DNA from: Streptomyces sp. GS7
GTDB taxonomy: Bacteria > Actinomycetota > Actinomycetes > Streptomycetales > Streptomycetaceae
Length of the DNA stretch: 64,000 nucleotides
Direction: 5' to 3'
Assembly: GCF_009834125.1 (NCBI RefSeq)
Contig: NZ_CP047146.1
Location: 5,573,501-5,637,500, forward strand
The position numbers and the translations under genes were made by a program. Below are positions 1 to 14,682 of the stretch, in pieces. Below the pieces are notes generated by a model. It searched no databases. It was not told where the DNA came from and was given only the letters and a program-made list of their open reading frames with translations. Numbering within the stretch: the first letter of the stretch is position 1; the number at the start of each line of letters is the position of its first letter.

Positions 1-1058
1 CGTTCGAGGCGGGTGGGTGAGTCCTGGAGGTAGCCGTGACGCAGGCCGAGGGCGGTGACCAGGTCGTCGACGGCGGCGTGGCACTCCTCGGCGGCGGTGA
101 TCTTGAGCGCGTTGAGCTGGAGCTGCCGCGCGGGGACGGAGAGGTCCTGGCCCGACTCCAGTGTCCTCAGGGTCTGTTGGAGGAGTGCGTGGACGGTGTC
201 CAGCCGCTTCCGGGACCGGGAGAGGCGGGTGAGCAGCAGTTCGGAGGAGAGGTCGAAGCGCTCCCGGCCGGAGGGGCTGCGCAGCAGCCGCAGGACGCGG
301 GAGAGCGCCCCGGCCGCCGTGCCGAGCCAGACCGCGGACCAGCCGGTGTGGGCGAGCGGGCCGAAGACCTCGGCGGCGATGCGGTGGAACCCGCCCTGCT
401 CGCCGACCACTTGATGGGCCGGGACACGGCCGGTCAGCCGCAGGGCGACGCTGTGGCTGGCCCGCATTCCCATGGGCTGCCAGTCGCCGGAGGGGGTGAT
501 CTCGACTTGGTCGCGGTGGGCGAAGACGAGGGACACCTCGTCGGCCGTGGCGTCCTGGCTCGGACTGCGCATGGTGACGAGGAAGCCGTCCGCGTGGGTG
601 CCGCCGGTGACGATCGGGGCGAAACGGTCGAACGCCAAGGTTCCGTCGGTTTCGGCGAGTTGGGCATGGGCGCTGAGCAGGTGCCCGCCCTTGCCGGTCT
701 CGGTGGTGACGGAGGCGAGATAGAGTTCGCCGGCCGCGACCCTGGGAAGGAGTTCCTTGCGCAGCCGTGCGCCGCCGTGGTGGACCAGTGCCGCGGACTG
801 CTGGCAGTGCATGGCGAAGACCATGCCGACGGACATGTCGCTCCGGCCCAGGGCCTGTGCCGCGGTCACCAACTCCCGTACGGATCCATCGAGTCCGCCG
901 TATGCGGCGGGTACCAGCAGGCCGAGCAGGCCGGTGCGGCGCAGCGCCGCCAGGGCGTCCACCGGGAAGGCGGCGGCCCGGTCGGTGTCGGCCGCGTACC
1001 GCTCGGTGACCTCGGCGACCTCGGCCAGGCGGTCGGCCAGGGCGAGCGGGCCGCTCAT
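1..1058 (-). CDS. Acyl-CoA dehydrogenase family protein, C-terminus cut by window edge
   Basis: About 352 residues are visible, read from ATG at 1058-1056; the C-terminus lies beyond base 1. The protein has the acyl-CoA dehydrogenase layout: a helical N-terminal domain with a YGGLDGSVRELV stretch, a middle domain with FAMHCQQSAALVHHGG and SVTTETGKGGHLLSA, and a helical C-terminal domain. These flavoenzymes introduce alpha,beta double bonds into acyl thioesters. The start overlaps the stop of the acyl carrier protein gene (ATGA), so the two are translationally coupled. I infer that its substrate is an acyl or aminoacyl group on that carrier protein, as for prolyl-carrier dehydrogenases, and not free acyl-CoA. 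Confidence 0.85.
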   Translation of the reverse strand, partial: MSGPLALADRLAEVAEVTERYAADTDRAAAFPVDALAALRRTGLLGLLVPAAYGGLDGSVRELVTAAQALGRSDMSVGMVFAMHCQQSAALVHHGGARLRKELLPRVAAGELYLASVTTETGKGGHLLSAHAQLAETDGTLAFDRFAPIVTGGTHADGFLVTMRSPSQDATADEVSLVFAHRDQVEITPSGDWQPMGMRASHSVALRLTGRVPAHQVVGEQGGFHRIAAEVFGPLAHTGWSAVWLGTAAGALSRVLRLLRSPSGRERFDLSSELLLTRLSRSRKRLDTVHALLQQTLRTLESGQDLSVPARQLQLNALKITAAEECHAAVDDLVTALGLRHGYLQDSPTRLE

Positions 1059-1309
1059 GCGGAGACCTTGTCGGGGAGCTGGTCGGCGATCACGCGCCAC
1101 AGGCTGCCGGCGGTGGCGAAGGTGGTGTCGTTGAGTTCGTCGTCCGGCAGGGAGATGCCGAACGTGTCCTCTATGGCGAAGAGCAGCTCGATCGCCTGCA
1201 TGGAGTCGACGCCGAGCCGGCGCAGGTCGGTTTCGGGGGTGAGGGCGGCCTCGCCGGGGCCGGCGTGCTTGAGGAAGGGGCGGAGGAGTGCGGTGAAGCG
1301 GGGGTCCAT
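1055..1309 (-). CDS. Free-standing acyl carrier protein
   Basis: An 84-residue phosphopantetheine carrier of normal ACP length. The attachment motif is LGVDSMQAIELLFAIED, with Ser36 as the predicted phosphopantetheine site, followed by FGISLPDDEL, typical of ACP helix 3. An AGGAGA ribosome site precedes the ATG. It sits between the BtrH-like/carrier fusion gene (30 bases upstream) and the acyl-CoA dehydrogenase (ATGA overlap). It probably holds the acyl or aminoacyl intermediate while cluster enzymes modify it. Confidence 0.92.
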   Translation of the reverse strand: MDPRFTALLRPFLKHAGPGEAALTPETDLRRLGVDSMQAIELLFAIEDTFGISLPDDELNDTTFATAGSLWRVIADQLPDKVSA

Positions 1310-1338
1310 GGGGGTGCGTCTCCTGTTCGGGGAGGGGC

Positions 1339-2472
1339 TCAGCGGGCGATACGGCAGAGGTCGTCGACGCGGCGGAGGTTCTCCGGGATCAGTTCGTCGG
1401 CGTCGAGTTCCCGGCCCAGCGCGCTCTCCAGCTGCTCGATGATCTCGACCAGCCGGAAGGAGCTGAAGGAGGGGAAGGAGTCGAACGGCGCTCCGGCGAG
1501 GAGTTCTGACGGGGCGACACCGAGCACCGCGCCGGCGACGGCGGCCACCTGCCGGCGCAGCTCGTCGTCGGGGGCGGGGGCGGCCGCCCGTTCCGGTACC
1601 ACGCCGAAGACCGTACGGTCGGCGGCGAGGACGGCGCGCAACCGGTCGACGACGCCAGGGGGTTCGGCCCGGCCGCGGGAGACCCGGCGGTGGGCGAGGT
1701 AGGTCTGCTCGACGACCTTGTCCCAGGCGCGCAGGTGTTCCGCCTCCGGGCCGGGTCCGGGCCCGTCGACCCGGCCGGAGAACAGGGCGCGGTAGGTGGC
1801 GTGCAGCTTGCGCGTACGGGCCAGCAGCCAGGTCTCCACGGTGAGTTGCCCGATGGCGCGGGCGCGGTCCGGGCAGCGGTCGTAGGCGTCGAGGTAGGCG
1901 TCGACGGCCGTCCCGTCCAAGGTCGGCGCGGGCGGCAGCGCGGCGATCGGGGGCGGCTCCGCCGGGGCCAGCTCGACGACTTCGGCCGCCGCGATACCCG
2001 CGAGGTCCGACGCGGACAGCAGCCAGTGGCCGGGGGTGGCCGGGCCCCAGGGGGTCTCGTTGCGGTAGCCGTCGGTGACCCGCCAGCCTTCGGGGTCCGC
2101 GGCGAGCAGGAAGCTGTGCTCCATGTGCGCCTGGCCGTGATACGGCAGCCAGGGCAGATGGTAGGAGTCCGCGACGACGTAGCGGGTGCCGCCGTCGGCG
2201 GTGAGGGCGGCGAGCGGTTCGGTACGCGGCAGGCGGGCGCGCCGGACGACTCGGAGTCCCAGGAGGCCGGGCAGGGTGGCCAGTTGCCGCGTCAGCGGCG
2301 GGTCGACGGTCGGCAGGCCGTCGTCGGCGCGCCGCCAGGCGCGAAAGCCCAGGGACGAGCCGAGGCGCAGGTGGGTGCCCGGGCCGTGGTGGTGGTCGGC
2401 CAGTACCGCCAGGTTGACCTGGATGCAGTCCAGCAGACCGGTACGGACCGAACCGAGTTCGAGGTGCGCCAT
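1339..2472 (-). CDS. BtrH-like acyltransferase fused to a C-terminal carrier domain
   Basis: 377 residues from ATG 2472, chosen because GGAAGAAAG lies upstream; a GTG at 2529 overlapping the previous stop is the alternative. The N-terminal part resembles the BtrH N-terminal domain (butirosin acyl-ACP:aminoglycoside acyltransferase), a papain-like fold. A plausible triad is Cys16 in LLDCIQVNL, His in HMEHSFLL and Asp in RVTDGYRN. The last 75 or so residues look like a second carrier domain, with FDSFPSFSSFRLVEIIEQLE in place of the usual DSL motif. By family analogy it moves an acyl group from a carrier to an amine. The acceptor is unknown, and the self-contained carrier is odd because BtrH itself lacks one. 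Confidence 0.7.
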   Translation of the reverse strand: MAHLELGSVRTGLLDCIQVNLAVLADHHHGPGTHLRLGSSLGFRAWRRADDGLPTVDPPLTRQLATLPGLLGLRVVRRARLPRTEPLAALTADGGTRYVVADSYHLPWLPYHGQAHMEHSFLLAADPEGWRVTDGYRNETPWGPATPGHWLLSASDLAGIAAAEVVELAPAEPPPIAALPPAPTLDGTAVDAYLDAYDRCPDRARAIGQLTVETWLLARTRKLHATYRALFSGRVDGPGPGPEAEHLRAWDKVVEQTYLAHRRVSRGRAEPPGVVDRLRAVLAADRTVFGVVPERAAAPAPDDELRRQVAAVAGAVLGVAPSELLAGAPFDSFPSFSSFRLVEIIEQLESALGRELDADELIPENLRRVDDLCRIAR

Positions 2473-2525
2473 TCGGGAATCGCTTTCTTCCGGTCGGGGG
2501 GTGGCGGCGTTCGCGGGGGCCGGGG

Positions 2526-3242
2526 TCACAGCCAGGGCGGCAGTACGGGCAGTTGCCCGGTGGTCGAGTGGAGGCCGGTACCGCCGGTCCGGCCGGCCAG
2601 CCAGCCGAGGGCGTCGGCGGGGGTGCCGGTGACGGCCGGGCCGCCGGTCCCGAACCGGGCCAGCACCGCTCCCCCGTGGTCGCGCAGGGTGAAGTCCGGT
2701 ACCCCGTCGGCCTCGGCGTAGTAGCCCAGGACGTCGGCGAGGATGATCCGCCGGGCGGATGCGGGGATGTCGGCGACCTCGTAGCCGATGGCGAGGTCGA
2801 CGTGGTGCAGTTCGAGTTCCCGGACGCGGATCGCCAACACCCGCTGGGGCGTGCAGAGTTCGCCGGTGAAGGGCCGGATGGTCGCCTGCCAGGCGGGCGC
2901 CGGGAGCGCTTCGGCGGTGCGCTGGAAGTGGGCCGCGGTGGCCCGGACGTCCGCGGCCAGGGCCGCCGCGGGGCGGTGTGCGCCCGCCTCGATCTCGGCG
3001 TCACGGGTCGCCCGGTCCGGGTACTGGGGCGTGACGACTCCGGTACGGGCCCATTCCAGCAGCCGTTCCAGGGCCGGGGCCTGCCGGGCGAGGTGGCACA
3101 GGACATGGCCGCGGGTCCAGCCGGGCAGCCTGGACGGCACCGGGATGTCGGCGTCGGTGAGGCCCTCGATGCCGGTGAGCAGCCGATCAGCGGCGGCGGC
3201 GATCTCCCGGAAGGATTCCGGGGTGGGGGGTATTTCCTTCAC
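2526..3242 (-). CDS. Maleylpyruvate isomerase family (mycothiol-dependent/DinB-like) enzyme
   Basis: 238 residues. The start is GTG 3242, overlapping the aminotransferase stop (GTGA); the longer upstream reading is Arg/Pro-rich and unlikely. The N-terminal MDMPI-type helical bundle shows metal-ligand candidates in GHVLCHLARQ and in VRELELHHVDLAIGYE. The C-terminal segment with LADVLGYY, TPADALGWLAGR and TGQLPVLPPWL matches the family tail. Members are mycothiol S-transferases or isomerases, and many have no known substrate. Inside a tightly coupled operon it may carry out a thiol-dependent step or detoxify an electrophilic intermediate. Family assignment is firm, role is not. Confidence 0.75.
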   Translation of the reverse strand: MKEIPPTPESFREIAAAADRLLTGIEGLTDADIPVPSRLPGWTRGHVLCHLARQAPALERLLEWARTGVVTPQYPDRATRDAEIEAGAHRPAAALAADVRATAAHFQRTAEALPAPAWQATIRPFTGELCTPQRVLAIRVRELELHHVDLAIGYEVADIPASARRIILADVLGYYAEADGVPDFTLRDHGGAVLARFGTGGPAVTGTPADALGWLAGRTGGTGLHSTTGQLPVLPPWL

Positions 3243-4537
3243 GGTGCTTCCTCCGGTCGGCGGTGCGGGGCGGCGAGCCGGCCGAACCCGTCGGCGATTC
3301 GGGCCAACTCGCCAGCGATGTGGGGTAGTTGTGTGGGGTCGTCGGCGCACAGCGCCTCCGCCTGCTGCCGCTCGTCGCCGTAGAGCAGGCTGGTGGCGGC
3401 CTTGAAGCGGAGCGCCTGGGGGTCGTCGCCCAGGAGGTGGCCGGCGAGGACGACGATGCCGGAGTCGTCGAGGAGGGCCGACGCGAGGGACGCCGAGTCG
3501 GTGATGCCGCGGGCGGCCAGCCGGTCGCGGAGCGGTGCGAAGTCAGGGTAGACGTAGAACCCGCCGGTGGGCGGGCGGCAGCGGGCCCCGGCGTCGACGG
3601 CGATCCGGTGGACGGCCCGGGCCACCGCGCCGTGCAGCCGGGCGGCGGCCCGCACCCGTGCCACGATCTCCGGCGGCTCGGCGTAGGCGTACTCGGCGAC
3701 GTGCTGCATCGGGCCGGCCAGAGTGGACCACAGCTCACTGGCGGCGGCGACGACCGCGTCCCGCAGCAGTTCCCCGGTGTCGCCCTCGGGGAACCGCGCC
3801 ACGCCGATCCGCCAGCCGCCGAGGCCGAGGGACTTGGACAGCCCGCTGGTGACGACGGTGCGTTCCGGGGCGGCCTCGGCGGGGCTGAGGAAGGGGGTGG
3901 CGTCCGGGTCGTGGACGATGTCGCGGTAGATCTCGTCGGCGACGATCAGCAGCTCCTCCTCCCGTGCCAGCGCGCCGAGTTCGCGGATCAGCGCGGGCGG
4001 GGCGAGGGTGCCGGTGGGGTTGTCGGGGAGGGTGAGGATCAGCAGGCGGGGGTCGGCGCCGGTGGCCCGGGCCCGGTGCAGGGCGGTGCGCAGCGCACCG
4101 GGCTCGGGGACGCCGCCGCAGTCGGCGGGGATCGGGACGCCGAAGGCCCGCTTGCCGGCGTAGGCCGCCTGGGGTGCGTAGGTGTTCCAGGCGGGGCGGG
4201 GCAGCAGCACATCGCCGGGGATGACGAGTTGCAGGGCCATCAGCAGCGGTTTGCTGCCGGGGGCGACCACGATCCGGTCGGGGGTGGTGGGCAGCCGGCG
4301 GCGGGTGAAGTAGCCGGCGACCGCGGTGCGTACGCCCTCGCCGCCGGCCACCGGCCCGTACGCGGCACGGGTCGCGCCGGCGGCGAGCCGGTCGGCGAGC
4401 TGCGGCAGGACCGGCAACCGGGCCTCGCCGAAGGCGAGATGGACCAGGGAGTCGCCGCGGGCCCGGCGCCGGTCGACGAGCTGGTTGAGGGCGAGGTTCG
4501 GTGAGGGCGCGGGCGGCGCGGCGGTGCCGGCGGTCAT
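3239..4537 (-). CDS. PLP-dependent class I/II aminotransferase
   Basis: 432 residues of fold-type I aminotransferase. Visible motifs in order are AAYGPVAGGEGVR, VVAPGSKPLLMAL, LPDNPTGTLAPPALIREL, VADEIYRDI and TSGLSKSLGLGGWRIGVARF, where the Lys forms the PLP Schiff base and the Arg binds the cofactor phosphate. Its start overlaps the stop of the aminomutase gene (ATGA). It probably removes or adds an amino group on the building block handled by the aminomutase; the substrate cannot be read from sequence. Confidence 0.9.
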   Translation of the reverse strand: MTAGTAAPPAPSPNLALNQLVDRRRARGDSLVHLAFGEARLPVLPQLADRLAAGATRAAYGPVAGGEGVRTAVAGYFTRRRLPTTPDRIVVAPGSKPLLMALQLVIPGDVLLPRPAWNTYAPQAAYAGKRAFGVPIPADCGGVPEPGALRTALHRARATGADPRLLILTLPDNPTGTLAPPALIRELGALAREEELLIVADEIYRDIVHDPDATPFLSPAEAAPERTVVTSGLSKSLGLGGWRIGVARFPEGDTGELLRDAVVAAASELWSTLAGPMQHVAEYAYAEPPEIVARVRAAARLHGAVARAVHRIAVDAGARCRPPTGGFYVYPDFAPLRDRLAARGITDSASLASALLDDSGIVVLAGHLLGDDPQALRFKAATSLLYGDERQQAEALCADDPTQLPHIAGELARIADGFGRLAAPHRRPEEAP

Positions 4538-5880
4538 CGCGGGTTCCCTTCGGTGTGCGCGGCGTCGCCGCGTACGGCTGCCGCGAGGTCGGCGGGCGTG
4601 GCGGGGTCCAGGTCGAGTTCGTCGAGCCAGGCGGCGGTGGCCGAGTAGCGGGCCCGGAACGGCCGGCCCACCAGATCCGGCTGCCGCGCCTGGAGCATCC
4701 GCAGCTGGAAGAAGGCGCCTTCGGGGGTGTGCTCGACCCCGTCCACCGCGACCTTGCCGGGGGTCGCGGACATGACCGGGCCGCGGACCGTGCGGGCGAG
4801 TCCGGGCAGCGTGCGGTAGGCGTCGGCGAAGATCTCCGCGGCCCTGGCCAGCGGCACCTTGAAGTAGTCGTACGGTCCGGTGTCCCGCTCCACGAACAGG
4901 TAGTACGGCACGGCACCGGCGGCGAGTTCGGCCCGCCACAGCTCGCTCCACACCCGGGCGTCGTCGTTGACGTGGGCGATCAGCGGCGCCTGGCAGTAGA
5001 CCACCGCACCGGTGGCGCGGATCCGGGCCAGGGCGCGCCGGGCGAGGTCGGTGGCGAGTTCGCGGGGGTGGCTGAAGTGGGCCATCACCGCCAGCTGCCG
5101 CCCGGAGGCCGCGATCCGCTCGAAGAGCCGCAGCACGTCGTCGGCGTCCGGGTCGGTGACGTAGCGCTGCGGCCAGTACGCCACGGACTTGGTGCCGATC
5201 CGGATCGTACGGACCGCGTCGACGCGGAGCAGCGGCTCCAGGTGGGCGCGCAGCCGCTCGGTGGACATCACCATCGGGTCGCCGCCGGTGACCAGGACGT
5301 CGTGGACCTCGGGGTGCGCGCCGAGGTAGTCGATCAGTCCGCCCGGGTCGGGGACGGCGAAGCGCAGATCGGCGTCCCCGATGAACTGGGCCCAGCGGAA
5401 GCAGTAGGTGCAGTAGGCGTGGCAGGTCTGGCCCTGGCCGGGGAAGTAGAGGACGGTCTCGCGGTATTTGTGCTGGAGGCCGGGGAGTTCGGCGCCGTCC
5501 CGGCGGGGTACGTTGAGTCGCTGCTGGCCGGAGGGGTGCGGGTTGAGCCGGCCGCGGATCTCCTGGACGGCCTCGCGCAGCAGTGGTGTGTCGGCGGGGT
5601 CGGCGGAGAGTTTGGCGAGCCGGTCCTCGTCGTCCCGGGACAGCATGCCGCGCTGCGGGAAGGTCAGTTGGAACATCGGGTCGCCGGGTACGTCGTCCCA
5701 GTCGATCAGCTCGTCCAGGACGTACTCGTTGACGCGGAAGGGCAGCACCAGCGACACCCGGCGGACGGTCTCCCGGATCTCCTCGGGCAGTCCGTGGCGG
5801 GCGGCGATGGCATCGATGTGGCGGGGGCCGTAGGCGCGGAAGCGGGGCGGGGCGGCCGAAGCCGACGGCTCGGCCGTCAT
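4534..5880 (-). CDS. KamA-family radical SAM aminomutase
   Basis: 448 residues. The radical SAM cluster motif is CHAYCTYCF (CxxxCxxC). LVTGGDPMVMS binds S-adenosylmethionine and GPVMSATPGKVAVDG carries the candidate PLP lysine near the end. KamA enzymes move an alpha-amino group to the beta carbon: lysine, glutamate or arginine 2,3-aminomutase. This predicts a beta-amino acid unit in the product. Substrate specificity is not assignable by eye. The gene overlaps the carbamoyltransferase stop and the aminotransferase start, so the three are translationally coupled. Confidence 0.88.
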   Translation of the reverse strand: MTAEPSASAAPPRFRAYGPRHIDAIAARHGLPEEIRETVRRVSLVLPFRVNEYVLDELIDWDDVPGDPMFQLTFPQRGMLSRDDEDRLAKLSADPADTPLLREAVQEIRGRLNPHPSGQQRLNVPRRDGAELPGLQHKYRETVLYFPGQGQTCHAYCTYCFRWAQFIGDADLRFAVPDPGGLIDYLGAHPEVHDVLVTGGDPMVMSTERLRAHLEPLLRVDAVRTIRIGTKSVAYWPQRYVTDPDADDVLRLFERIAASGRQLAVMAHFSHPRELATDLARRALARIRATGAVVYCQAPLIAHVNDDARVWSELWRAELAAGAVPYYLFVERDTGPYDYFKVPLARAAEIFADAYRTLPGLARTVRGPVMSATPGKVAVDGVEHTPEGAFFQLRMLQARQPDLVGRPFRARYSATAAWLDELDLDPATPADLAAAVRGDAAHTEGNPR

Positions 5881-7556
5881 CGGCGGGCACCCCCGGTCCG
5901 GTCGCTCTTGCGGTAGAGGTCGTCGCCGAGGACGAGGAAGTCCAGGTCCATGGCGCGGAAGGCGGTGAGCGCGTCGGCGGCGGTGTTGACGATGGGTTCG
6001 CCCTTGCCGTTGAAGGACGTGTTGAGCAGCACCGGTGGTGCGCCCTGCGTGCGGAGGGCGTCCAGGGCGGCGCCGACGGCCGGGGCCTCGTCGCCGTGCA
6101 GGACCTGCGGGCGGGTGGTGCCGTCGATGTGCACGACGCCGGGGGCGACCTGCCGGCCCAGCGCGGTGGCCCGGGCGGCGCCGAGCATGTAGCGGCTCAA
6201 GTGCTCCTGTTGCTCCCAGAGTTCGGCGCCGTAGTCGGGCCTGGTGACACCGGCGAAGGGGCGCCACTGCTCGCGGTTCTTGAGGGTGTTGACCCGTACG
6301 GTGACGCCCGCGGTGTCCGGTACGGCGATGATGGAGCGGCGGCACAGCGCGCGCGGGCCGACCTCGGCGCGGCCCTGGGCGACCGCGCCGATCCGGCCGT
6401 CCAGGAGGAGGGCGGCGAGGTCGTCGGTGTCCAGGTCGGTGCGGACCAGGTCCGAGGTGTCGAGCGCGGCCCGCCGTCGGGCGGAGTCGGGGCCGTGGAT
6501 GTCGGTACCCAGGTAGGGGCTGAGCGGGGTGGTGTGCCGCCGGGGCGGGCGGACGGTCCAGGCGGCGCCGAGCGCGACCCCGGCGTCGTGCGGCACCGGC
6601 GGGACGTAGAGCGGTCCGGGCAGGGTGCCGTTGGTGCTGCAGTTGAGGGCGACGCCGCCGCTGAGGCAGAGCTCTTCGACACCGGCGGCCTTGCGGGTGA
6701 GCGAGGCGAGGTGGCGGACGGTCTCCTCGATGACGCGCTGAGCGGTGTAGGCGACGAGGACGGCGTTCGGGTCGTCGGTGAGGCTGCCCTCCGGCGCGCT
6801 CGGGCCGTCGGCCCCGGCGATTCGGGAGTAGCGGTCCCGCCAGCGGCCGACGACGGTGTCGTACTGCTCCTTGATCTCGTCGGCGGTGGCGCTCCCCCGG
6901 TTCTCGGTGAGCGGTGCGACGGCCGGCCGGAAGTCGTCGGCGGTGAGGTCGACGAGGGGTTCCACCTCGATGCCGGCGGCGCGCCCGTAGGCGGCCAGGC
7001 CCATGGTCTTGCCGGCGTTGAGGAAGGAGAAGCCGAGCCAGGTGGAGGCGGCGTCGTAGGCGTAGCCGAGGGAGGCGGTGCGCTGCCAGCTGCGCTCCAG
7101 GCGGGGTGCGGCGCCGTCCTCGTAGGTCCAGATGGTCGAGGACTCGTTCTCGCCGTGGCCGTCGACGACCAGGACGCCGGCCTTGGTGAACGGCGAGGCG
7201 TAGAAGGCGGAGGCGGCGTGCGCCTGGTGGTGGGGGACGCGGACGACCTCGGGGGTGCGGTCGCCGAAGTCCAGGCCGACGGCGTAGGCGAGGAAGTCGG
7301 CGTCGGTGGCGAAGCGGCGCGGGTAGAGCTGTTCGCTGTCCCAGCCGAGGGCGACCACGTCGACGTCGGCCGGGGAGATGCCGGCCTGGTGGAGCACGTA
7401 GCGGGCGGCGCCGAGGGGCTTGCGGTAGAGGGAGTGGCGGTGGCGGTTGCAGCGCTCCTCCTCGGAGAAGGCGATGATCTCGCCGTGTTCGTCGATGAGG
7501 CAGGCGGCGCTGTCGTGCCAGCCGGTGGGCGGTGCGTTGACGCCAAGGATCCACAT
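5877..7556 (-). CDS. NodU/TobZ-family O- or N-carbamoyltransferase
   Basis: 559 residues, the usual length of two-domain carbamoyltransferases. It begins MWILGVNAPPTGWHDSAACL, the family opening. The Kae1-like domain has the metal-binding HHQAHAASAFYASPF, DGHGENESSTIW and LSGGVALNCSTNG. The YrdC-like C-terminal part has AEVGPRALCRRSI and LNTSFNGKGEPIVNTAADA. The reaction moves carbamoyl from carbamoyl phosphate, through carbamoyl-adenylate, onto a hydroxyl or amine. This predicts a carbamoylated product, as in tobramycin or novobiocin tailoring. The ATG is preceded by a GAGAG-like site; the gene lies 47 bases after the ATP-grasp gene. Confidence 0.93.
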   Translation of the reverse strand: MWILGVNAPPTGWHDSAACLIDEHGEIIAFSEEERCNRHRHSLYRKPLGAARYVLHQAGISPADVDVVALGWDSEQLYPRRFATDADFLAYAVGLDFGDRTPEVVRVPHHQAHAASAFYASPFTKAGVLVVDGHGENESSTIWTYEDGAAPRLERSWQRTASLGYAYDAASTWLGFSFLNAGKTMGLAAYGRAAGIEVEPLVDLTADDFRPAVAPLTENRGSATADEIKEQYDTVVGRWRDRYSRIAGADGPSAPEGSLTDDPNAVLVAYTAQRVIEETVRHLASLTRKAAGVEELCLSGGVALNCSTNGTLPGPLYVPPVPHDAGVALGAAWTVRPPRRHTTPLSPYLGTDIHGPDSARRRAALDTSDLVRTDLDTDDLAALLLDGRIGAVAQGRAEVGPRALCRRSIIAVPDTAGVTVRVNTLKNREQWRPFAGVTRPDYGAELWEQQEHLSRYMLGAARATALGRQVAPGVVHIDGTTRPQVLHGDEAPAVGAALDALRTQGAPPVLLNTSFNGKGEPIVNTAADALTAFRAMDLDFLVLGDDLYRKSDRTGGARR

Positions 7557-7603
7557 GACGCGTTTCTCTCTTCGTAGGCGGGTGGTGGAGGGAGGGGCCC
7601 GGG

Positions 7604-10036
7604 TCACCGGAGGGGGGTGAGGGAGTACCGCACGGCGTGCCGGGCGCGGTCGAGGGCCGCCGCGCAGTCCTCGGGGGTCGCGCCGACGGCCAGGAGGGCG
7701 GCCAGGCGCGGGACGACGCCGTGCGGAGGCAGCCGGAGCACGGTGCCGGGGGCGGCGAGCGGCACGGCCTCGGCGATGCCGGGCTCGGCGGCGGCGGCGC
7801 GCACGTCGAGGGACCGCACGGTGCCGTCGTGTTCGGGGTAGAGGAAGCGGACCTCGGCGCAGCGGTCGCGGGCGGGGGTGAGGTCGGGGGTCCGGCCGAG
7901 GGCGAGGTCCGCGGCGGCGGCGACCGGGTCGACGCCGGTGGCGAGGGTGCCGAGGAGCGGGATGAAGTCGCCGCCGAGCCGGCCGTTGACCTCGACGATG
8001 CGCGGGCCGGTGGCGGTCAGCCGCAGTTCGGTGTGGGTGAGGCCGGTGCGGATGCCGAGGACGGCGTGCGCCTCGGCGACCACGGTCCGCGTCTCGTCGG
8101 CCCACGGCTCGTGCCGCCAGGGGGCGACGAGATGGCCGGTCTCCTCGAAGTACGGGGCGAATCCGAGGCGTTTGCGCGCCACGTTGACGATCCGTACCGC
8201 TCCGTCGGCGACCGCGCAGTCCACGCTGATCTCCGGTCCGGACAGGTATTCCTCCACGATCACCCCGTCGAGCGCGCCGAGTCCGGGGAAGGCGGCGGAC
8301 ACCGCCTGCGCGTAGGCGCGGGCGACGGCGCCGGGGTCGGCGGCGAGGGTGACGCCGATGCTGCCGGCCAGGGCGCGCGGTTTGACCACGACCGGGAGCC
8401 CCAGCTCGCGGGCCGCTTCCTGGGCCTGCGCGCCGCTGTGCGCGTGGTGGAAGCGGGCGGAGGGCACGCCCGCGGCGGCCAGCAGCCGGCGGGTGGTGAG
8501 CTTGTCGCGGCAGCGGCGGACCGCCTCCGGGCTCATGTGCGGCAGGTGCAGCCGTCGGGCGACCTCCGCGGTGGTCTCCAACAGCGCCTCGTCCCAGGTC
8601 AGTACGGCTCCGGGGCCCGGGTGCGCGGCCAGCAGCGCGGCGGCGGCCCGGGTGGTGGCCGCGGGGTCGGCGGTGTCCGCGGCCCGGAACCGGTCCGCGA
8701 CGTAGCGCCGCTGCCAGTCGATGTCCGCGGACTGGACGAGTGCGGTGCGGGCGCGTTCGGAGACGGTGCGCAGCGCGTATCCGCGGTAGGGCGGGTTGCC
8801 GCAGCCGATGACGACGAGCTGCGGGGCCCCTTCGGGGTCGACGGGCGTGCAGTCCAGGACGGCGCCGCGCATCGTGCGGCGGACGGCGGCGGCCACCTCG
8901 GCGCTGCTGCCGCCGCGGAAGCGGAACCGGGCCCCGGCGTGCTCGTAGCCGCCGCCGGTCAGCAACGCGCCGACCTCGGGGAGGACGTGGGCGTAGGCTC
9001 CGCCCTCCTCGTACGGGGGATGGGCGCGCACCCGGCAGGGCATCGGCACCGTCGGCGGCACCAGCAGCCAGCCCGCCACCGCGCCGGGGGCGGGGGCCGA
9101 CCCGGCGGAGCGGTCGTCGGTGCCCGCCTGGTGCGCGAACGCCGCCGCCATCAGGTCGATGCCGTGCACCTCCCGCCAGACGAAGGGCACTTCGGCGCCG
9201 CCGGGCCGGGCCCCGATCTCCAGGACCGTGAGCGCCCCGCGCTCGCTCGCGAAGAGCTCCAGGTGGAAGACGGACGGGCCGGTGAACAGCGCGCCGGCCG
9301 TGGCGGCGGTGATCTCCTCGATACGGGCGAGGAGTTGAGGATCGTCGATCTCGACCGAGGCGAGCGCGGTGCCGCTGGTGAAGTCCAGACAGGTCGTCAG
9401 ATAGCGGGCGGCCCGCCAGGCGCCGAGGCCGTCCCCGGTGAACACGCCGTCCACGTGCAGCACCTGGTCCGGCAGCCAGGACTGGACCAGCATGCCGCCG
9501 TCGCGGGGGATCTCGCAGGCGGCGAGCCGGTCCGCGGAGTCCAGCCGGGTGATCCCGGCGCTGGCGGTGCCGCGGCGCGGTTTGAGCAGCACCGGCCAGC
9601 CGTGCCGGGCGGCGAAGGCGGCCACCGCGGCACGGTCGGGGGCGGCGGCGGTGGGCGGTACGGCGATGCCCGCGGCGGCCAGCTTCCGGGCCATCAGCAG
9701 TTTGTCGCGCAGCGGCTCCAGGTCGGCGGCGCGCTGCCCGGGCAGGTCGAACTCGCCGCGCAGATCGGCCGCCAGGTCGAGGTCGGTCTCCTGGAGCGCG
9801 ACGATCCGGGTCACCGGCCCGACCCGCTCCACCAGCGTGTCGATCGCCTCCCGGACCGCCTTCACGTTCTCCGTGCTGTCCACGATCCGTACGCCGGCGG
9901 CCTGTTCGGCCGGCAGGTGGCGGGTGGCGCGTTCGGTGGTGACGTAGCTGACGCGGTGCGCGGCGTGGTCGAGGTAGGCGGCGTAGTCGGCGTAGCGGTC
10001 GGTCCAACGGTGGATGATGATCACGTGTTCGGGCAC
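7604..10036 (-). CDS. Tandem ATP-grasp ligase with two complete domains
   Basis: 810 residues from GTG 10036, fixed by AGGAG eight bases upstream. Two ATP-grasp units lie in one chain. The first has RDKLLMARKL, VLLKPRRGTASAGI, FHLELF and LEIGARPGGAEVPF. The second, after a linker with a Rossmann-like LVVIGCGNPP, has CRDKLTTRRLLAAAGVP, VVVKPRALAGSIGV, VEEYLSGPEISVD and IVEVNGRLGGDFI. Both keep nucleotide-binding lysines and acidic metal ligands, so both may be active, although in the first domain the metal Asn is replaced by Gly. ATP-grasp enzymes join carboxylates to amines through acyl phosphates. Two amide bonds, or amino acid loading onto the carrier as by BtrJ, are possible roles. Confidence 0.85.
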   Translation of the reverse strand: MPEHVIIIHRWTDRYADYAAYLDHAAHRVSYVTTERATRHLPAEQAAGVRIVDSTENVKAVREAIDTLVERVGPVTRIVALQETDLDLAADLRGEFDLPGQRAADLEPLRDKLLMARKLAAAGIAVPPTAAAPDRAAVAAFAARHGWPVLLKPRRGTASAGITRLDSADRLAACEIPRDGGMLVQSWLPDQVLHVDGVFTGDGLGAWRAARYLTTCLDFTSGTALASVEIDDPQLLARIEEITAATAGALFTGPSVFHLELFASERGALTVLEIGARPGGAEVPFVWREVHGIDLMAAAFAHQAGTDDRSAGSAPAPGAVAGWLLVPPTVPMPCRVRAHPPYEEGGAYAHVLPEVGALLTGGGYEHAGARFRFRGGSSAEVAAAVRRTMRGAVLDCTPVDPEGAPQLVVIGCGNPPYRGYALRTVSERARTALVQSADIDWQRRYVADRFRAADTADPAATTRAAAALLAAHPGPGAVLTWDEALLETTAEVARRLHLPHMSPEAVRRCRDKLTTRRLLAAAGVPSARFHHAHSGAQAQEAARELGLPVVVKPRALAGSIGVTLAADPGAVARAYAQAVSAAFPGLGALDGVIVEEYLSGPEISVDCAVADGAVRIVNVARKRLGFAPYFEETGHLVAPWRHEPWADETRTVVAEAHAVLGIRTGLTHTELRLTATGPRIVEVNGRLGGDFIPLLGTLATGVDPVAAAADLALGRTPDLTPARDRCAEVRFLYPEHDGTVRSLDVRAAAAEPGIAEAVPLAAPGTVLRLPPHGVVPRLAALLAVGATPEDCAAALDRARHAVRYSLTPLR

Positions 10037-10257
10037 CGGAGGGCTCCTGGGGCGCGGTCGGGCACGGGGATGCAGGGGGCCGGGGGCGGGCAGACCGGAC
10101 ACCGGGCGGGCGCCGGTGCACGGGGAGCGGAGGAGGGCACGGAGGCGGCGGGATGAACTCCGCCCACTCGGCCGACTCGCCATGCGTGAAGCGGTGTTGG
10201 AGAGTCACGGGGCGGGCGGGTGCGCGCCGGGTTCCGGCGGTCCGGGCCGCCGCCGGG

Positions 10258-11514
10258 TCAGTTCCCGCGGGCGGCGGTCAGCAGGGCCTCGTGCGTGTCC
10301 CACAGCAGTGCGGCGCACCGGTCGCGGCCGAGGTCCTTGGCGGTCAGCCGGATGGACAGGGCGCGGTCGGTCTCCAGCGCGCGGGCGTAACATCGCGGGC
10401 CGATGGTGGTGAAGGGCTCCTCCCAGGTGAGGGCGGGCGCCCCGGCGGAGGCCGGAAGGACCGGCACATCGGGGGCCGAACTCTCCGGTACTGCAACGTA
10501 GTTGAAGGCACAGGCCGGTTCGGGAGCCGCCGGCATACGGGCCCGGAGCGCGGCCACGGCGGTGACGTCGTGCATACCGTGCCGGAAGGCACCGAGGCCG
10601 CTCCAGTGGACGGCGTCGGCCAGTTTGACCAGGTCGTCGCCGCGGGCGTGCTCGATCAGCGCCGGGACCCACTGGTTCATGGAGGTCACCACGTTCCGCC
10701 AGCGGCCGGCGAAGCGGTTGGCACTCATCAGCTGCACCAGCAGCGTGTCCGCGCCGCACATCCGGGCCACGCTGCGGGCGTAGGCCGCGAGGACGACGCT
10801 GGCGACGGAGACCCGGGCGCGCTCGGCGACGGTGTGCGCGGCCGGGCGGGCAGGGGCGGAGCGCAGGGTGCCCTGGACGACCCGGCCTTCGGCGGCGGCG
10901 TCGCGCGGCAGGGCCGCGGACGGGGCGCGATCCAGGAGTTGGGCCCAGTGGTCGAGGGCCTGCGCCTGGCGCCGGAGCCCGGCGGGGGTGTGCTGTGCGG
11001 CGGCGAGGTCGGCGGGACCGGGCGGGGTGGTGCCCAGTCCTGCCGGGTGGGTGAGCGCCCGGCGGAATTCCTGGTGGAGGAGTTCCTGGGCCCAGGCGTC
11101 CGCGGCGATGTGGTGCTTGACGAACAGCAGATGGGAGGCGATGCCTCGGCGGGTCAGTAAACGGGCCCGCCAGCCGTGCTGCCGGCCCAGGTCGAAGGGC
11201 TCGGCGGCCAGCCGCGCGGCGAGCTCGTCGGGGCCGGTGCCGTCGTCCTCGACGACCGGCAGGCGGTCGCCGGTGGGCTCGTCGGGCGGCAACTGGCGCG
11301 GGGCGTCGGCGTCGTGGACGTCGTAGCGCGTCCGCAGTGACGGGTGCCGGGTGACGGTCACGCGCAGCGCCGTACGGGCCGCTTCCACGGTCGCTCCGGG
11401 CGGCAGCGGCCAGGCCGCCGCGTTGTTCGGCTCGTGCCGGCGGGAGGCCGGCAGGCCCCGGATGTCGTGCCACACCGAGAGCTGACCCAGCGAAAGCGGT
11501 CCTGCCTCGGACAT
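10258..11514 (-). CDS. Free-standing condensation-domain protein
   Basis: 418 residues starting at ATG 11514 after a GGGGGA site; the reading frame is open further upstream but that part is intergenic in character. It opens with PLSLGQLSVWHDIRGLP, a C1-like core of NRPS condensation domains. The catalytic HHIAADAW corresponds to HHxxxDG with the final Gly changed to Ala. STSTIGP-like and later core motifs are loose. Such enzymes form amide or ester bonds from a carrier-bound acyl donor. It is first in the minus-strand gene run and divergent from the adenylation enzyme, a natural partner. Confidence 0.8.
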   Translation of the reverse strand: MSEAGPLSLGQLSVWHDIRGLPASRRHEPNNAAAWPLPPGATVEAARTALRVTVTRHPSLRTRYDVHDADAPRQLPPDEPTGDRLPVVEDDGTGPDELAARLAAEPFDLGRQHGWRARLLTRRGIASHLLFVKHHIAADAWAQELLHQEFRRALTHPAGLGTTPPGPADLAAAQHTPAGLRRQAQALDHWAQLLDRAPSAALPRDAAAEGRVVQGTLRSAPARPAAHTVAERARVSVASVVLAAYARSVARMCGADTLLVQLMSANRFAGRWRNVVTSMNQWVPALIEHARGDDLVKLADAVHWSGLGAFRHGMHDVTAVAALRARMPAAPEPACAFNYVAVPESSAPDVPVLPASAGAPALTWEEPFTTIGPRCYARALETDRALSIRLTAKDLGRDRCAALLWDTHEALLTAARGN

Positions 11515-11821
11515 ACAATTCCCCCATGTCACATTTCCATTATGCGGAAGTTGAATTCCACGCAAGGGTGACGCTGCCACAATCCATCGACCGCCGCAAG
11601 GAGTTGCCGAAGCGGCGAGGTGATCCACCTCACACGTCGACGCCGTCGCGGACATGAGAGCCTGATTGCCGCCTGCCGGAATCATCTTTCCAAATCCTGG
11701 AAAATCGAGGCAGTATTTCTCCGCGCTTCCCGCCCTTCGCCACGTCATCGCACTCCCATCGCACTCCATCCGCTTTCGCGCCAACTCTCCGTTCCCGAAG
11801 GCCACAAGGGGGCTTTGCCAC
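11515..11821. promoter_or_regulatory. Divergent promoter region of the biosynthetic cluster
   Basis: This 307-base gap lies between the condensation gene (minus) and the adenylation gene (plus) and is more AT-rich than its surroundings. On the minus strand a CATAAT hexamer at 11544-11539 sits 15 bases from TTGCGT at 11565-11560, a possible but short-spaced promoter. TTCC/GGAA around 11535-11549 forms a small palindrome that could bind a regulator. No pathway-specific regulator gene is seen inside the window, so control may come from a gene to the left. Confidence 0.4.
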
Positions 11822-13447
11822 GTGAGTCAGCAGCAGCCCACCCCCGTCGACACCGCCGGGGGCATCCGCCATGACTTCCTGCACGACTTCCTTCTCGACC
11901 CGGCCCGGCACTCCCCCGGCGACCCCGCGGTCATCGCATCGCCGCAGGCCGGCCACACCGCGGTGACGACCTACGCCGAACTCACCGCCCTGGTGGGCGA
12001 ATACGCCGCTGAACTGCGCGCGCTGGGCGTCGAACCCGGCGCCCGGGTCATCCTGGAGGCGGACACCACCGCCCCGGCCGTCGCGATGCTGCTCGCCTGT
12101 TCGCGGGCCGGCCTCACCTTCGTCCCGGTGAGCCCGGAAACGCCGCGCCGGCGCCTGGAATCCATCGTCGATGCCGTTCAACCCGCCCTGCATCTCCAGG
12201 AGTTGGCCGGGCAGCGGGCGGATCTCCCGCCGTCCGTGGGGACCGCGCGGTTCGGTCCGGGCGGGCTGGCCGTCGACCGCGCCCCGGTACGCCGCCCGCC
12301 GCGGCGCACCGCGCCCTGTGTCACCGACCCGGCGTACGTCATCTTCACCTCCGGCACCACCGGCCGCCCCAAGGGCGTGGTGATGAGCCACCGCGCGGTG
12401 GTCGCCTTCTACCGGGGCATGCTGGCGCACCGGATCGCCGGCCCCGAGGACCGGATCGCCAGCACCTCACCGCTCCAGTTCGACTTCTCGCTGCTCAACA
12501 TCGGGCTGGCGCTGGGCAGCGGCGCGTCCGTGGTGCCGGTCCCACCGCGGCTGGTGCGCTGGCCCCGGCATCTGCTGCGGGTGCTGCGCGAGACCGGGGC
12601 CACCCAGGTCAACGGCGTCCCGTCGATCTGGCGGCAGGCGCTGCGCCACGAGCCACGGCGGCTGGCCGCGCTCGACCGGCTGCGCGGCGTCCTGTTCTGC
12701 GGCGAGGAGTTCCCGCTGCCCGAACTCCGCCGCCTCCAGGAGCTGTTGCCGACGGCCCGGATCATCAACTGCTACGGCGCGACGGAGTCCATGGCCTGCT
12801 CCTTCGAGGACGTGCCCCGCCCGCTGCCCGCGACCTGCGAGCGGCTCTCGATCGGCATCGCCCACCCCGGCGCCGAGATGCTCCTCGTCGACGAGGCCGG
12901 CGCGGTCGTCGACGCACCCGGTGTGGTCGGCGAGATCCATCTGCGCAGCCCGGCGCTGTTCTCCGGCTACTGGGACGACCCCGAGGCCACCCGCGCGGCG
13001 CTGGTCCCCGACCCGCTGTGCCCGCAGTCCGGCCAGTACGTCCTGCGGACCGGGGACCTGGCCCTGCGCGGCCCGGGCGGCGAGTTCTACTTCGCCGGAC
13101 GGACCGATTCCCAGGTGCAGATCAACGGCAACCGCGTCGAACTGGCCGAGGTGGAACGGCGGTTGACGGAGCATCCGGGCGCGGCGGCGGCCACCGCGCT
13201 GCCCCTGCCGCTGCCCGGTGGCGGACAGCGGCTGGCCGCGTTCGTCGTCCCGGCCGCCGGTCACGACCTCGGCGACACGGGCGCGCTCCGGGAGTTCTGC
13301 GCCCGGACGCTGCCCCCGTACATGGTCCCCCAGGAGATCCGGCTGCTGGACCGGCTGCCCACGACCGCGCACGGCAAGGTCGACCGGACGGCGCTGGCGG
13401 CGGGGGCGGTGCCGGCCGCGGCGGGGGCCGCCGGAGGCGCCCGGTGA
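11822..13447 (+). CDS. Free-standing amino acid adenylation enzyme
   Basis: 541 residues from GTG 11822, about 12 bases after AAGGGGG. Adenylation cores in order: YVIFTSGTTGRPKGVVMSHR (A3), FDFSLLNIG (A4), NCYGATESMA (A5), GEIHLRSPALFSGYWDD (A6), LRTGDLA (A7), TDSQVQINGNRVELAEVE (A8) and PTTAHGKVDRTAL (A10) with the catalytic Lys. The Asp in FDFS occupies the position that binds an alpha-amino group, which suggests an amino acid substrate. It probably activates and loads the free or fused carrier domain. The MFS gene start overlaps its stop. Confidence 0.92.
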   Translation: MSQQQPTPVDTAGGIRHDFLHDFLLDPARHSPGDPAVIASPQAGHTAVTTYAELTALVGEYAAELRALGVEPGARVILEADTTAPAVAMLLACSRAGLTFVPVSPETPRRRLESIVDAVQPALHLQELAGQRADLPPSVGTARFGPGGLAVDRAPVRRPPRRTAPCVTDPAYVIFTSGTTGRPKGVVMSHRAVVAFYRGMLAHRIAGPEDRIASTSPLQFDFSLLNIGLALGSGASVVPVPPRLVRWPRHLLRVLRETGATQVNGVPSIWRQALRHEPRRLAALDRLRGVLFCGEEFPLPELRRLQELLPTARIINCYGATESMACSFEDVPRPLPATCERLSIGIAHPGAEMLLVDEAGAVVDAPGVVGEIHLRSPALFSGYWDDPEATRAALVPDPLCPQSGQYVLRTGDLALRGPGGEFYFAGRTDSQVQINGNRVELAEVERRLTEHPGAAAATALPLPLPGGGQRLAAFVVPAAGHDLGDTGALREFCARTLPPYMVPQEIRLLDRLPTTAHGKVDRTALAAGAVPAAAGAAGGAR

Positions 13448-14682
13448 GCCGGCTCGACGAGCCCGGCCCGGTGGCCGGCGGGGTCGCCCGGGACGGCCGG
13501 CTGCGGGCGTTCGTCCGGGTGCGGGCCGGCGGACTGCCGGGGGCGTTCTGGGTGCTGTGGGGCGGATCTCTGGTCAACCGCCTGGGGGCGATGGTCAATC
13601 CGTTCCTGAGCCTCTACCTCACCGGTATCCGGCACGTCCCGATCGCCACCACCGGCATCGTCCTCGCGGTCGGCGGCGTCGGCTCGGTGATCTCCCAGCC
13701 GCTCGGCGGGTTCCTCGCCGACCGCTTCGGCCGCCGGGTGGCGCTGACCGGCGGGATGCTGGCGAACGGCGCCACGCTGCTCGTCCTCGGGCACGCCCGG
13801 AGCCTGGCGGTGCTGGTCGCTGCCTGCTTCGTCCTCGGCATCACCCTCGACCTGTTCCGGCCCGCCGCCCAGGCCCTGGTCGCCGACGCGGTGCCCGCCG
13901 CGGACCGGACCCGGGCGTACGGGCTGCTGCTGTGGGCGATCAACCTCGGCTTCTCGGTCGCCATGGTGATCGGCGGCTATCTCGCCGGCCACGGCTACGC
14001 ATTGCTGTTCTGGCTGGACGCGGGGGCCTGCACGGCCTTCGGGGTGCTGGTGTGGCTGGCCGTCCCGGAGACCCGGCCGGCCGCCCGGGAGCGCACCGGC
14101 GGCGGCTTCGGCACCGTCGTACGGGACCGGGTGATGCTCGCGTTCGCCGGCATCATCGTGGTCTACGCCGTCGTCTTCCAGCAGGCGTTCGCCACCCTGC
14201 CGCTGGCGATGCGGAGCACCGCGATGTCCAGCGGCGCCTACGGCATGGTGATGGGCGTCAACGGACTCGTCGTCATCGCGGCGCAGCCGCTGATCGGCCA
14301 CCGGCTCGCCGACCTCGACAAGAGCCGGGTGCTGGCCACCGGCTTCGCCGTCGCCGCCGTCGGCAACGCGGTGGCCGCCACGGCCCAGGCCGCGGTGGTC
14401 TACGGCATCGCGGTCGCGGTGTCGACGCTCGGCGAGATCCTGGTCTTCGCGGTCACCGCGGCCGTGGTCGCCGACCTCGCGCCCGCCGCGCTGCGCGGCC
14501 GGTACAACGGGCTGATCGGGATGGCCTGGGGAACCGGCTTCCTGATCGCCCCCGTCGCCGGCACCCGGCTGCTGGTCGTCGGCACCACCACCCTCTGGCT
14601 GAGCTGTACGGCGCTGTGCCTGCTGGCGGCGCTGGGCCAGTTGGCGCTGGGCCCGGCGCTGCGGCGTCGGGCGGGCCGGTGA
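13444..14682 (+). CDS. MFS transporter, probable exporter of the cluster product
   Basis: 412 residues with about 12 predicted membrane helices. The MFS loop motif is GGFLADRFGRRVALTGG between helices 2 and 3, with TGIVLAVGGVGSVISQPL before it. GTG 13444 overlaps the stop of the adenylation gene (GTGA), so they are coupled. Single-operon placement with a biosynthetic enzyme argues for export of, or self-resistance to, the product. The next 217 bases hold no convincing gene. Confidence 0.9.
   Translation: MSRLDEPGPVAGGVARDGRLRAFVRVRAGGLPGAFWVLWGGSLVNRLGAMVNPFLSLYLTGIRHVPIATTGIVLAVGGVGSVISQPLGGFLADRFGRRVALTGGMLANGATLLVLGHARSLAVLVAACFVLGITLDLFRPAAQALVADAVPAADRTRAYGLLLWAINLGFSVAMVIGGYLAGHGYALLFWLDAGACTAFGVLVWLAVPETRPAARERTGGGFGTVVRDRVMLAFAGIIVVYAVVFQQAFATLPLAMRSTAMSSGAYGMVMGVNGLVVIAAQPLIGHRLADLDKSRVLATGFAVAAVGNAVAATAQAAVVYGIAVAVSTLGEILVFAVTAAVVADLAPAALRGRYNGLIGMAWGTGFLIAPVAGTRLLVVGTTTLWLSCTALCLLAALGQLALGPALRRRAGR

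Follow-up and report, generated by a model that had tools for sequence, protein, structure and literature searches.

Which compound could be assembled by a gene cluster that holds free carrier proteins and stand-alone ligation enzymes and no modular synthase? This question is raised by the left end of a 64,000-nucleotide stretch (hereafter the window) of Streptomyces sp. GS7 (contig NZ_CP047146.1, 9.07 Mb), for which the initial annotation had proposed a tightly coupled carrier-protein cluster without modular non-ribosomal peptide synthetase (NRPS) or polyketide synthase (PKS), incomplete on the left. Genes were called de novo on the window together with the 20 kb that precede it on the contig (start sites are approximate; negative positions denote DNA upstream, i.e., to the left, of window position 1). 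We consider it reasonably probable that a cassette known from macrolactam clusters, where it supplies the starter unit, forms the basis of a non-modular assembly line here. As predicted from sequence, the most likely product is a small peptide-like compound that is carbamoylated and contains a 3-aminobutyrate unit both N-oxygenated and unsaturated.

A conserved cluster of 14 genes

The cluster comprises 14 genes between positions -3431 and 14682, which in our gene calls are long, codon-biased and mostly overlapping or close together: 12 genes lie on the minus strand, between 11475 and -3431, and two, transcribed divergently on the plus strand, extend to 14682 (Table 1). Three of the 14, encoding a second protein of the acyl-CoA dehydrogenase (ACAD) family (ACADb), a phosphopantetheinyl transferase (PPTase) and a second adenylation (A) enzyme (A2), lie left of the window edge; the cluster was rightly described as incomplete on the left, because the operon continues outside the window. 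The 377-aa protein in which a BtrH-like transferase is fused to a carrier domain was matched in 35 of 343 genomes of the genus, the window's own included, and of the 34 other genomes with a match, 32 supplied the 33 loci compared here (the weak matches in G122 and G183 were left out). All 14 genes stand in the same order in six loci (L027, L028, L031, L032, L033, L036). L030 has the cluster without the MDMPI gene, L034 has 12 genes (no PPTase gene was found, the exporter position lies past the end of the stretch, and an extra gene resembling those of the major facilitator superfamily (MFS) stands between the condensation (C) and ATP-grasp genes), and in L035 the cluster is interrupted by the contig end. 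The cluster is whole or nearly whole in eight other genomes of the genus, and the remaining fetched loci hold related but different clusters. Among named genomes, carriers of the window type include Streptomyces albospinus, S. inhibens and S. seoulensis. Because the same 14-gene order recurs in relatives, the block is more than a chance arrangement, and it is confirmed as a real, conserved cluster type, with bounds that were set, among other grounds, because relatives have exactly this block in common. The tight coupling proposed initially and the lack of modular NRPS or PKS among the cluster genes are thereby borne out. No description of the whole cluster was found in open-licence full-text literature, in searches aimed mostly at its parts and not at the full gene set, and we regard the cluster as known biosynthetic logic varied, not as a new kind of logic.

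Two observations on relatives may be added. In L029 (12043-13556) a remnant is left at the same chromosomal site: the exporter and BtrH-carrier genes remain, as does part of the C gene, and the flanking genes are conserved. Core relatives with an alanine-racemase-fold (type III) pyridoxal phosphate (PLP) enzyme lie on linear plasmids in L160 (NZ_CP070262.1) and L161 (NZ_CP109002.1); the L160 plasmid is typed as mobilizable, and ectA and an aspartate-aminotransferase-family gene adjoin its core.

A predicted 3-aminobutyrate cassette

According to the available text of PMC11284099, the glutamate 2,3-aminomutase IdnL4 of the incednine pathway was shown by gene disruption, IdnL3 is a beta-glutamate decarboxylase, IdnL1 is an adenylation enzyme for 3-aminobutyrate, and a second adenylation enzyme (VinM-type) attaches Ala, Ser or Gly to the carrier-bound beta-amine, yielding a dipeptidyl-carrier. 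The same gene pair is reported from producers of salinilactam, micromonolactam and lobosamide (PMC9230918), and IdnL4 and IdnL3 served as probes for macrolactam clusters in a study whose available part mentions no cluster like that of the window (PMC10662134).

The window's KamA, correctly placed in the aminomutase family by the initial annotation, is probably of the glutamate type, converting L-glutamate to beta-glutamate in the manner of IdnL4. All 64 recovered sequences have an arginine (Arg332) at the position of Asp293 of lysine 2,3-aminomutase, a residue that we take to bind lysine. A scan of named genomes by KamA alignment, covering the best 80 of at least 569 relatives, showed that many other clusters among the matches listed also have the PLP enzyme gene after KamA. 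The VinK_C domain was found by Pfam in S. cirratus (L067), VinK homologues occur in at least 12 named loci among the matches listed, and the VinK-homologue loci, 12 of 12, carry A1 (58-62% identity), KamA, the PLP enzyme and an A2-like protein (37-44%). In VinK loci (L067, L069, L083, L093, L098) the enzyme adjoining KamA shares 63-70% identity with the window's PLP enzyme; initially labelled an aminotransferase, the latter is most likely a beta-glutamate beta-decarboxylase of the IdnL3 type, judging from this homology.

A1, the adenylation enzyme encoded on the plus strand, has its best PDB matches in 7dq5, 5jjq, 5jjp and their kin (E 1.7e-185 to 5e-172), entries named beta-aminoacyl-ACP (acyl carrier protein) synthetase or similarly. 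Its pocket reads DFLNLCCAC in the window and in 15 other rows (some genomes appear twice), which agrees at seven of nine positions with 5jjq (DFLNLSCAA), an entry that we take to be IdnL1, and at five of nine with 7dq5 (DFFHLTGAC), presumably HitB; the predicted substrate is (S)-3-aminobutyrate. In L042 and L039/L070 (one genome) the pocket is changed to DLFNLSSSC, KamA is present and the PLP enzyme was not found in the stretch, as would be expected if A1 follows the decarboxylase; L048 has no PLP-enzyme match either, and its A1 is too short for the pocket table. L039 (= L070) and L042 are related clusters with KamA and a carbamoyltransferase, perhaps using beta-glutamate undecarboxylated. A2 resembles VinM and IdnL7: its PDB matches include 8k4r and 6akd, presumably VinM and IdnL7, respectively, which are also the best matches of the A2-like protein of L074, and its pocket is DPHNMCAVT.

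We think it very improbable that the pair consists instead of a lysine or arginine 2,3-aminomutase (KamA) and a genuine aminotransferase (the PLP enzyme) and leads to a streptothricin-like beta-lysine or beta-arginine compound: Arg332, the same trio in the VinK loci and an A1 pocket of the 5jjq type stand against it, even though the sole PDB match of KamA is a lysine 2,3-aminomutase, its NCBIfam matches (far below cut-off) include the lysine and arginine types along with the glutamate type, and scores of about 100 bits link the PLP enzyme to aspartate aminotransferases. Because of Arg332 and the incednine trio, the streptothricin reading was set aside, as was, after the link to macrolactams had emerged, a capreomycidine-synthase reading of the PLP enzyme (GntC and VioD matches; VioD at 77 bits, the cut-off being 391).

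Outside the clusters considered so far, KamA proteins (53-61% identity) occur in L101-L139, which belong to Marinobacter, Glycomyces, Planctomycetota and further taxa; for most of them no other cluster gene is among the matches listed. Of these KamA proteins, 23 were recovered by motif, all 23 with Arg332, and they possibly form beta-glutamate.

Two ACAD-family proteins with different catalytic residues

Two ACAD-family proteins act in sequence in chalkophomycin biosynthesis, where ChmG N-oxygenates the alpha-amine of a prolyl-carrier before ChmH dehydrogenates it, in the account available (PMC11177257); for alanosine, the ACAD-family protein AlnG is proposed to N-hydroxylate carrier-bound diaminopropionate (Dap) (PMC11705231, PMC7347517). 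The window cluster likewise encodes two such proteins, of which the initial annotation saw ACADa and read it as an acyl-CoA dehydrogenase. This assignment stands for the family but probably not for the function. ACADa has a gap at the column of the catalytic Glu226 in 58 of 58 sequences and a glutamate at the second ACAD catalytic position in none of the 58, whereas ACADb, with Bmp3 (6cxt) as its best PDB match, has Glu226 in 42 of 42 rows and a glutamate at the second position in 39 of 42. In the phylogenetic tree, the ACADa of L142, L143, L145, L140 and L144 share one branch (97/98) with those of the window type and the L039 type; the first three of these loci encode, besides SbnA and SbnB, a small protein of carrier size, an A domain and an ACADa (67-68% identical to that of the window), i.e., the gene content of alanosine. 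Because glutamate is missing from the catalytic positions and ACADa groups with its alanosine-type counterparts, it is probably a flavin N-oxygenase of the AlnG/ChmG kind, and ACADb, outside the window, is the likely dehydrogenase.

If ACADa were an ordinary or accessory dehydrogenase, as in essence initially suggested, the product would be only an unsaturated, carbamoylated 3-aminobutyrate amide without an N-O bond. We give this a minor chance. Both proteins belong to the ACAD family, the best NCBIfam match of ACADa is a FadE16-type ACAD (far below cut-off), ordinary ACADs lead its PDB list, and in bolagladin a dehydro-beta-alanine is made with one ACAD, BolQ, which is proposed to desaturate N-acyl-beta-alanyl-ACP and whose deletion gives dihydro products, as far as the available text goes (PMC7756342). 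The residue counts above speak against it, however, as do the PDB matches that follow the ordinary ACADs (DszC, the KijD3 type and the nitrososynthase 3mxl) and the branch shared with alanosine-type loci, in which ACADb was not found. The KijD3-type entry is 4kcf, which we take to be KijD3 itself.

Which nitrogen would an N-oxygenase act on? ACADa was matched in 50 of 336 genomes of the genus (E up to 1e-20), and of 53 loci fetched for their gene context 44 carry an ACADa that reaches 40%. Of the 44, 18 have some gene of the A1/KamA/PLP route, another 18 a VinN-like A enzyme (best solved relative 3wvn) or its decarboxylase, and three SbnA/SbnB, so that some source of a beta-amine is seen in 39; no locus has two routes, and none was detected in L040, L045 and L152 (short stretches) and in L140 and L144 (not short). 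Since all three routes would put an amine on the beta carbon of a thioester, ACADa is predicted to act on the beta-amine, and this is our main argument. ACADb is present in 29 of the 53 loci, always with ACADa and in 28 with the BtrH-like protein.

A2 might instead supply the amino acid that is oxidised, its alpha-amine becoming the oxime or nitro group that enteromycin-like compounds would need (going by what we take the structure of enteromycin to be); this appears unlikely. The available texts offer precedents in the prolyl-carrier alpha-amine oxidised by ChmG (PMC11177257) and in the dipeptidyl-carriers that VinM-type enzymes make from Ala, Ser or Gly (PMC11284099); L146-L148 and the SbnA/SbnB loci, however, have ACADa and a beta-amine source, and A2 was not detected within 20 kb. 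Azaserine and triacsin, with carrier-bound oxidation and carrier-to-carrier transfer (PMC10445470, from the part available), were retained as an analogy only, since no hydrazine genes turned up in the proteins scanned.

The window's own genome has another ACADa gene (65-66%; G000:C1, about 6363400-6377700; L140, L141), whose neighbours encode an O-methyltransferase, an MFS protein, an A domain, a protein of carrier size and molybdopterin oxidoreductases. This locus is an alanosine-like cluster; L140 as a plain alanosine cluster was dropped, SbnA and SbnB having no tblastn match in L140 and L144. Among the alanosine-type loci, L142 has nitrate-reductase- and NarK-like genes (both below NCBIfam cut-offs), and L143 has an NAD_binding_9 flavoprotein that was taken as CreE-like.

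Proposed pathway

In the pathway that we propose, KamA would convert L-glutamate to beta-glutamate (step 1), the PLP enzyme would decarboxylate this to (S)-3-aminobutyrate (step 2), and A1 would adenylate 3-aminobutyrate and load it onto the free carrier (step 3), whose Ser36 is conserved in 62 of 62 sequences; these steps rest on homology and on genomic coupling to a characterised pathway. While the unit is bound to the carrier, ACADa would then oxygenate its beta-amine (step 4), A2, as an enzyme of the VinM/IdnL7 kind, would attach an alpha-amino acid to that nitrogen (step 5), the order of steps 4 and 5 being possible either way, and ACADb would introduce an alpha-beta double bond, giving a 3-aminocrotonyl-type or oxime-type group (step 6); here homology and residue checks are the basis. 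For the remaining steps we infer that the acyl group may be moved by the BtrH-like protein, whose fused carrier is perhaps the acceptor, and that the C domain and the ATP-grasp ligase might join further amino acids (step 7), that the TobZ-type enzyme may carbamoylate a hydroxyl, possibly the N-OH (step 8), and that the MFS protein may export the product (step 9). The roles of the C domain, the ATP-grasp ligase and the MDMPI protein are guesses. In the BtrH-like carrier fusion, Cys16 (39 of 40), His119 (40 of 40), Asp134 (38 of 40) and Ser338 (38 of 40) are conserved, in a set with partly duplicate genomes, and a PP-binding carrier domain was matched in 22 of 27 homologues. The profile evidence for the BtrH assignment made initially is weak. 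As predictions, a beta-amino acid, carbamoylation, unsaturation and amide formation, all named by the initial annotation, are supported, and most of its gene families were right.

Several points weigh against this pathway. IdnL4 activity was not seen in vitro (PMC11284099), and the role of AlnG is a proposal only (PMC11705231, PMC7347517), both according to the available texts. The VinK-carrying loci are macrolactam clusters by our inference, and gramicidin synthase entries head the PDB list of A2, because two A-domain matches were summed. The decarboxylase is not a constant companion of the pocket: L150 has A1 (63%) with a near-standard pocket (DFINLCCAC) and KamA and the PLP enzyme were not found in its 20 kb; L041, L047 and L050, as examples, have KamA and the PLP enzyme, and A1 was not detected in the stretch. 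No flavin reductase was found in the window cluster, and L052 has one. BtrH_N gave no match for the window protein itself and weak matches in four of 27 homologues (best E 0.012). An amine already N-aminoacylated would be a poor substrate for N-oxygenation, which makes it uncertain whether step 4 or step 5 comes first.

Going further, starter loading may have turned into a stand-alone warhead pathway, in which one ACAD clade would N-oxygenate beta-aminoacyl-carriers from three interchangeable sources, namely glutamate (KamA and decarboxylase), an aspartate-type acid (VinN-like A enzyme and decarboxylase) and L-Dap (SbnA/SbnB), and in the window type O-carbamoylation of the N-OH or oxime would give a reactive N-O unit (isoxazolone, activated oxime or azirine); this extension is tentative, and we think it doubtful. 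Azirinomycin and enteromycin as products are speculation, no paper on how they are made being apparent from the titles and opening abstract lines of the literature listing. The product is probably an undescribed small peptide-like compound.

The locus links a group of clusters that has been overlooked to 3-aminobutyrate as the predicted first building block and to N-oxygenation on a carrier, of which few examples have been characterised. A further suggestion is that starter cassettes of macrolactams have been reused outside polyketide synthesis; if this is true, the labels KamA, 'aminotransferase' and 'acyl-CoA dehydrogenase' would mislead annotation.

Other features of the locus

The ATP-grasp ligase has NCBIfam matches in both halves, every one below cut-off. 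Three proteins were scanned to the left of the cluster (a trypsin-co-occurring domain protein, a short-chain dehydrogenase-like protein and an alcohol dehydrogenase) and six to the right (SpoIIE-type regulators, a uracil-DNA glycosylase-like protein and others). The window had no Rfam match at gathering scores.

Table 1. Genes of the cluster, with window positions and the basis of each assignment
Gene product	Position	Strand	Basis
A1, beta-amino-acid adenylation enzyme (IdnL1-like, predicted)	11822..13447	+	A domain by Pfam; PDB matches; pocket
MFS exporter (predicted), right cluster end	13444..14682	+	PF07690; adjoins A1 in relatives whose stretch extends there
C, stand-alone condensation domain	10258..11475	-	PF00668 E 1e-16; HHxxxDA motif
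ATP-grasp ligase, two ATP-grasp halves, C-terminal LAL_C2	7604..10036	-	PF13535, PF18603
Carbamoyltransferase, TobZ-like	5877..7556	-	PF02543/PF16861; best PDB match TobZ 3ven, E 3.9e-67
KamA, radical SAM 2,3-aminomutase family	4534..5880	-	TIGR00238, 117.8 bits, below cut-off
PLP enzyme ('AT'), fold type I (class I/II)	3239..4537	-	PF00155
MDMPI/DinB-family protein	2526..3242	-	PF11716, TIGR03083
BtrH-like transferase (weak match) with fused C-terminal carrier domain, 377 aa	1339..2472	-	Profile matches in homologues
CP, free carrier protein	1055..1309	-	PF00550
ACADa, ACAD family	-105..1058 (1..1058 inside window)	-	Pfam ACAD family
ACADb, second ACAD-family gene, outside window	-119..-1240	-	Pfam/NCBIfam; ACAD family
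PPTase, outside window	-1237..-1875	-	Pfam/NCBIfam
A2, second A domain, outside window	-1872..-3431	-	Pfam/NCBIfam

Comparison with known systems

Streptothricin and butirosin, the parallels drawn initially, are not the nearest precedents. The lysine 2,3-aminomutase of streptothricin probably has no equivalent here, as Arg332 replaces the aspartate in KamA; as to its capreomycidine/streptolidine genes, no arginine hydroxylase-type gene was found among 20 proteins scanned. The butirosin side chain is made by BtrI, BtrJ, BtrK and BtrH; a carrier-bound amino acid and an ATP-grasp enzyme are shared with it, and a BtrH-like transfer may be (weak BtrH_N matches, conserved Cys/His/Asp), but the window cluster has no Orn/DAP-type decarboxylase, and no aminoglycoside genes were among those scanned. 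A plain conversion of proline to pyrrole was set aside on the A pockets.

The closest precedents are macrolactam starter units, alanosine, chalkophomycin and bolagladin. The incednine-type starter cassette (IdnL4, IdnL3, IdnL1, a stand-alone ACP and IdnL7/VinM) has counterparts in KamA, the PLP enzyme, A1, the free carrier and A2: the 3-aminobutyrate trio of aminomutase, decarboxylase and A enzyme is predicted from homology and co-occurrence, and the second A enzyme with its stand-alone ACP from the 8k4r and 6akd matches and the conserved Ser36. Neither a VinK dipeptidyltransferase nor a modular PKS was found among the 14 genes and the six right-hand and three left-hand neighbours, and the type I loci have no VinK homologue; ACADa, ACADb, the BtrH-like carrier fusion, the C domain, the ATP-grasp ligase and the carbamoyltransferase are added. 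Alanosine (aln/ala) resembles the window cluster in a free carrier and in an ACAD protein that is presumably AlnG-like, to judge from the tree and the gene context; SbnA/SbnB and the nitrite source of alanosine are not among the cluster genes scanned, and ACADb, the BtrH-like protein and the carbamoyltransferase are additions. With bolagladin, which comes from Burkholderia, is proposed to be aspartate-derived and feeds a modular NRPS, the shared logic is that of BolQ, an ACAD desaturating an N-acylated beta-aminoacyl carrier. The N-hydroxypyrrole module of chalkophomycin (ChmG/H/I/J) shares an A enzyme, a carrier and a pair of ACADs, one with and one without the catalytic glutamate, but neither A domain of the window cluster looks proline-specific, measured against what we take to be the proline codes, and the substrate predicted here is a beta-amino acid.

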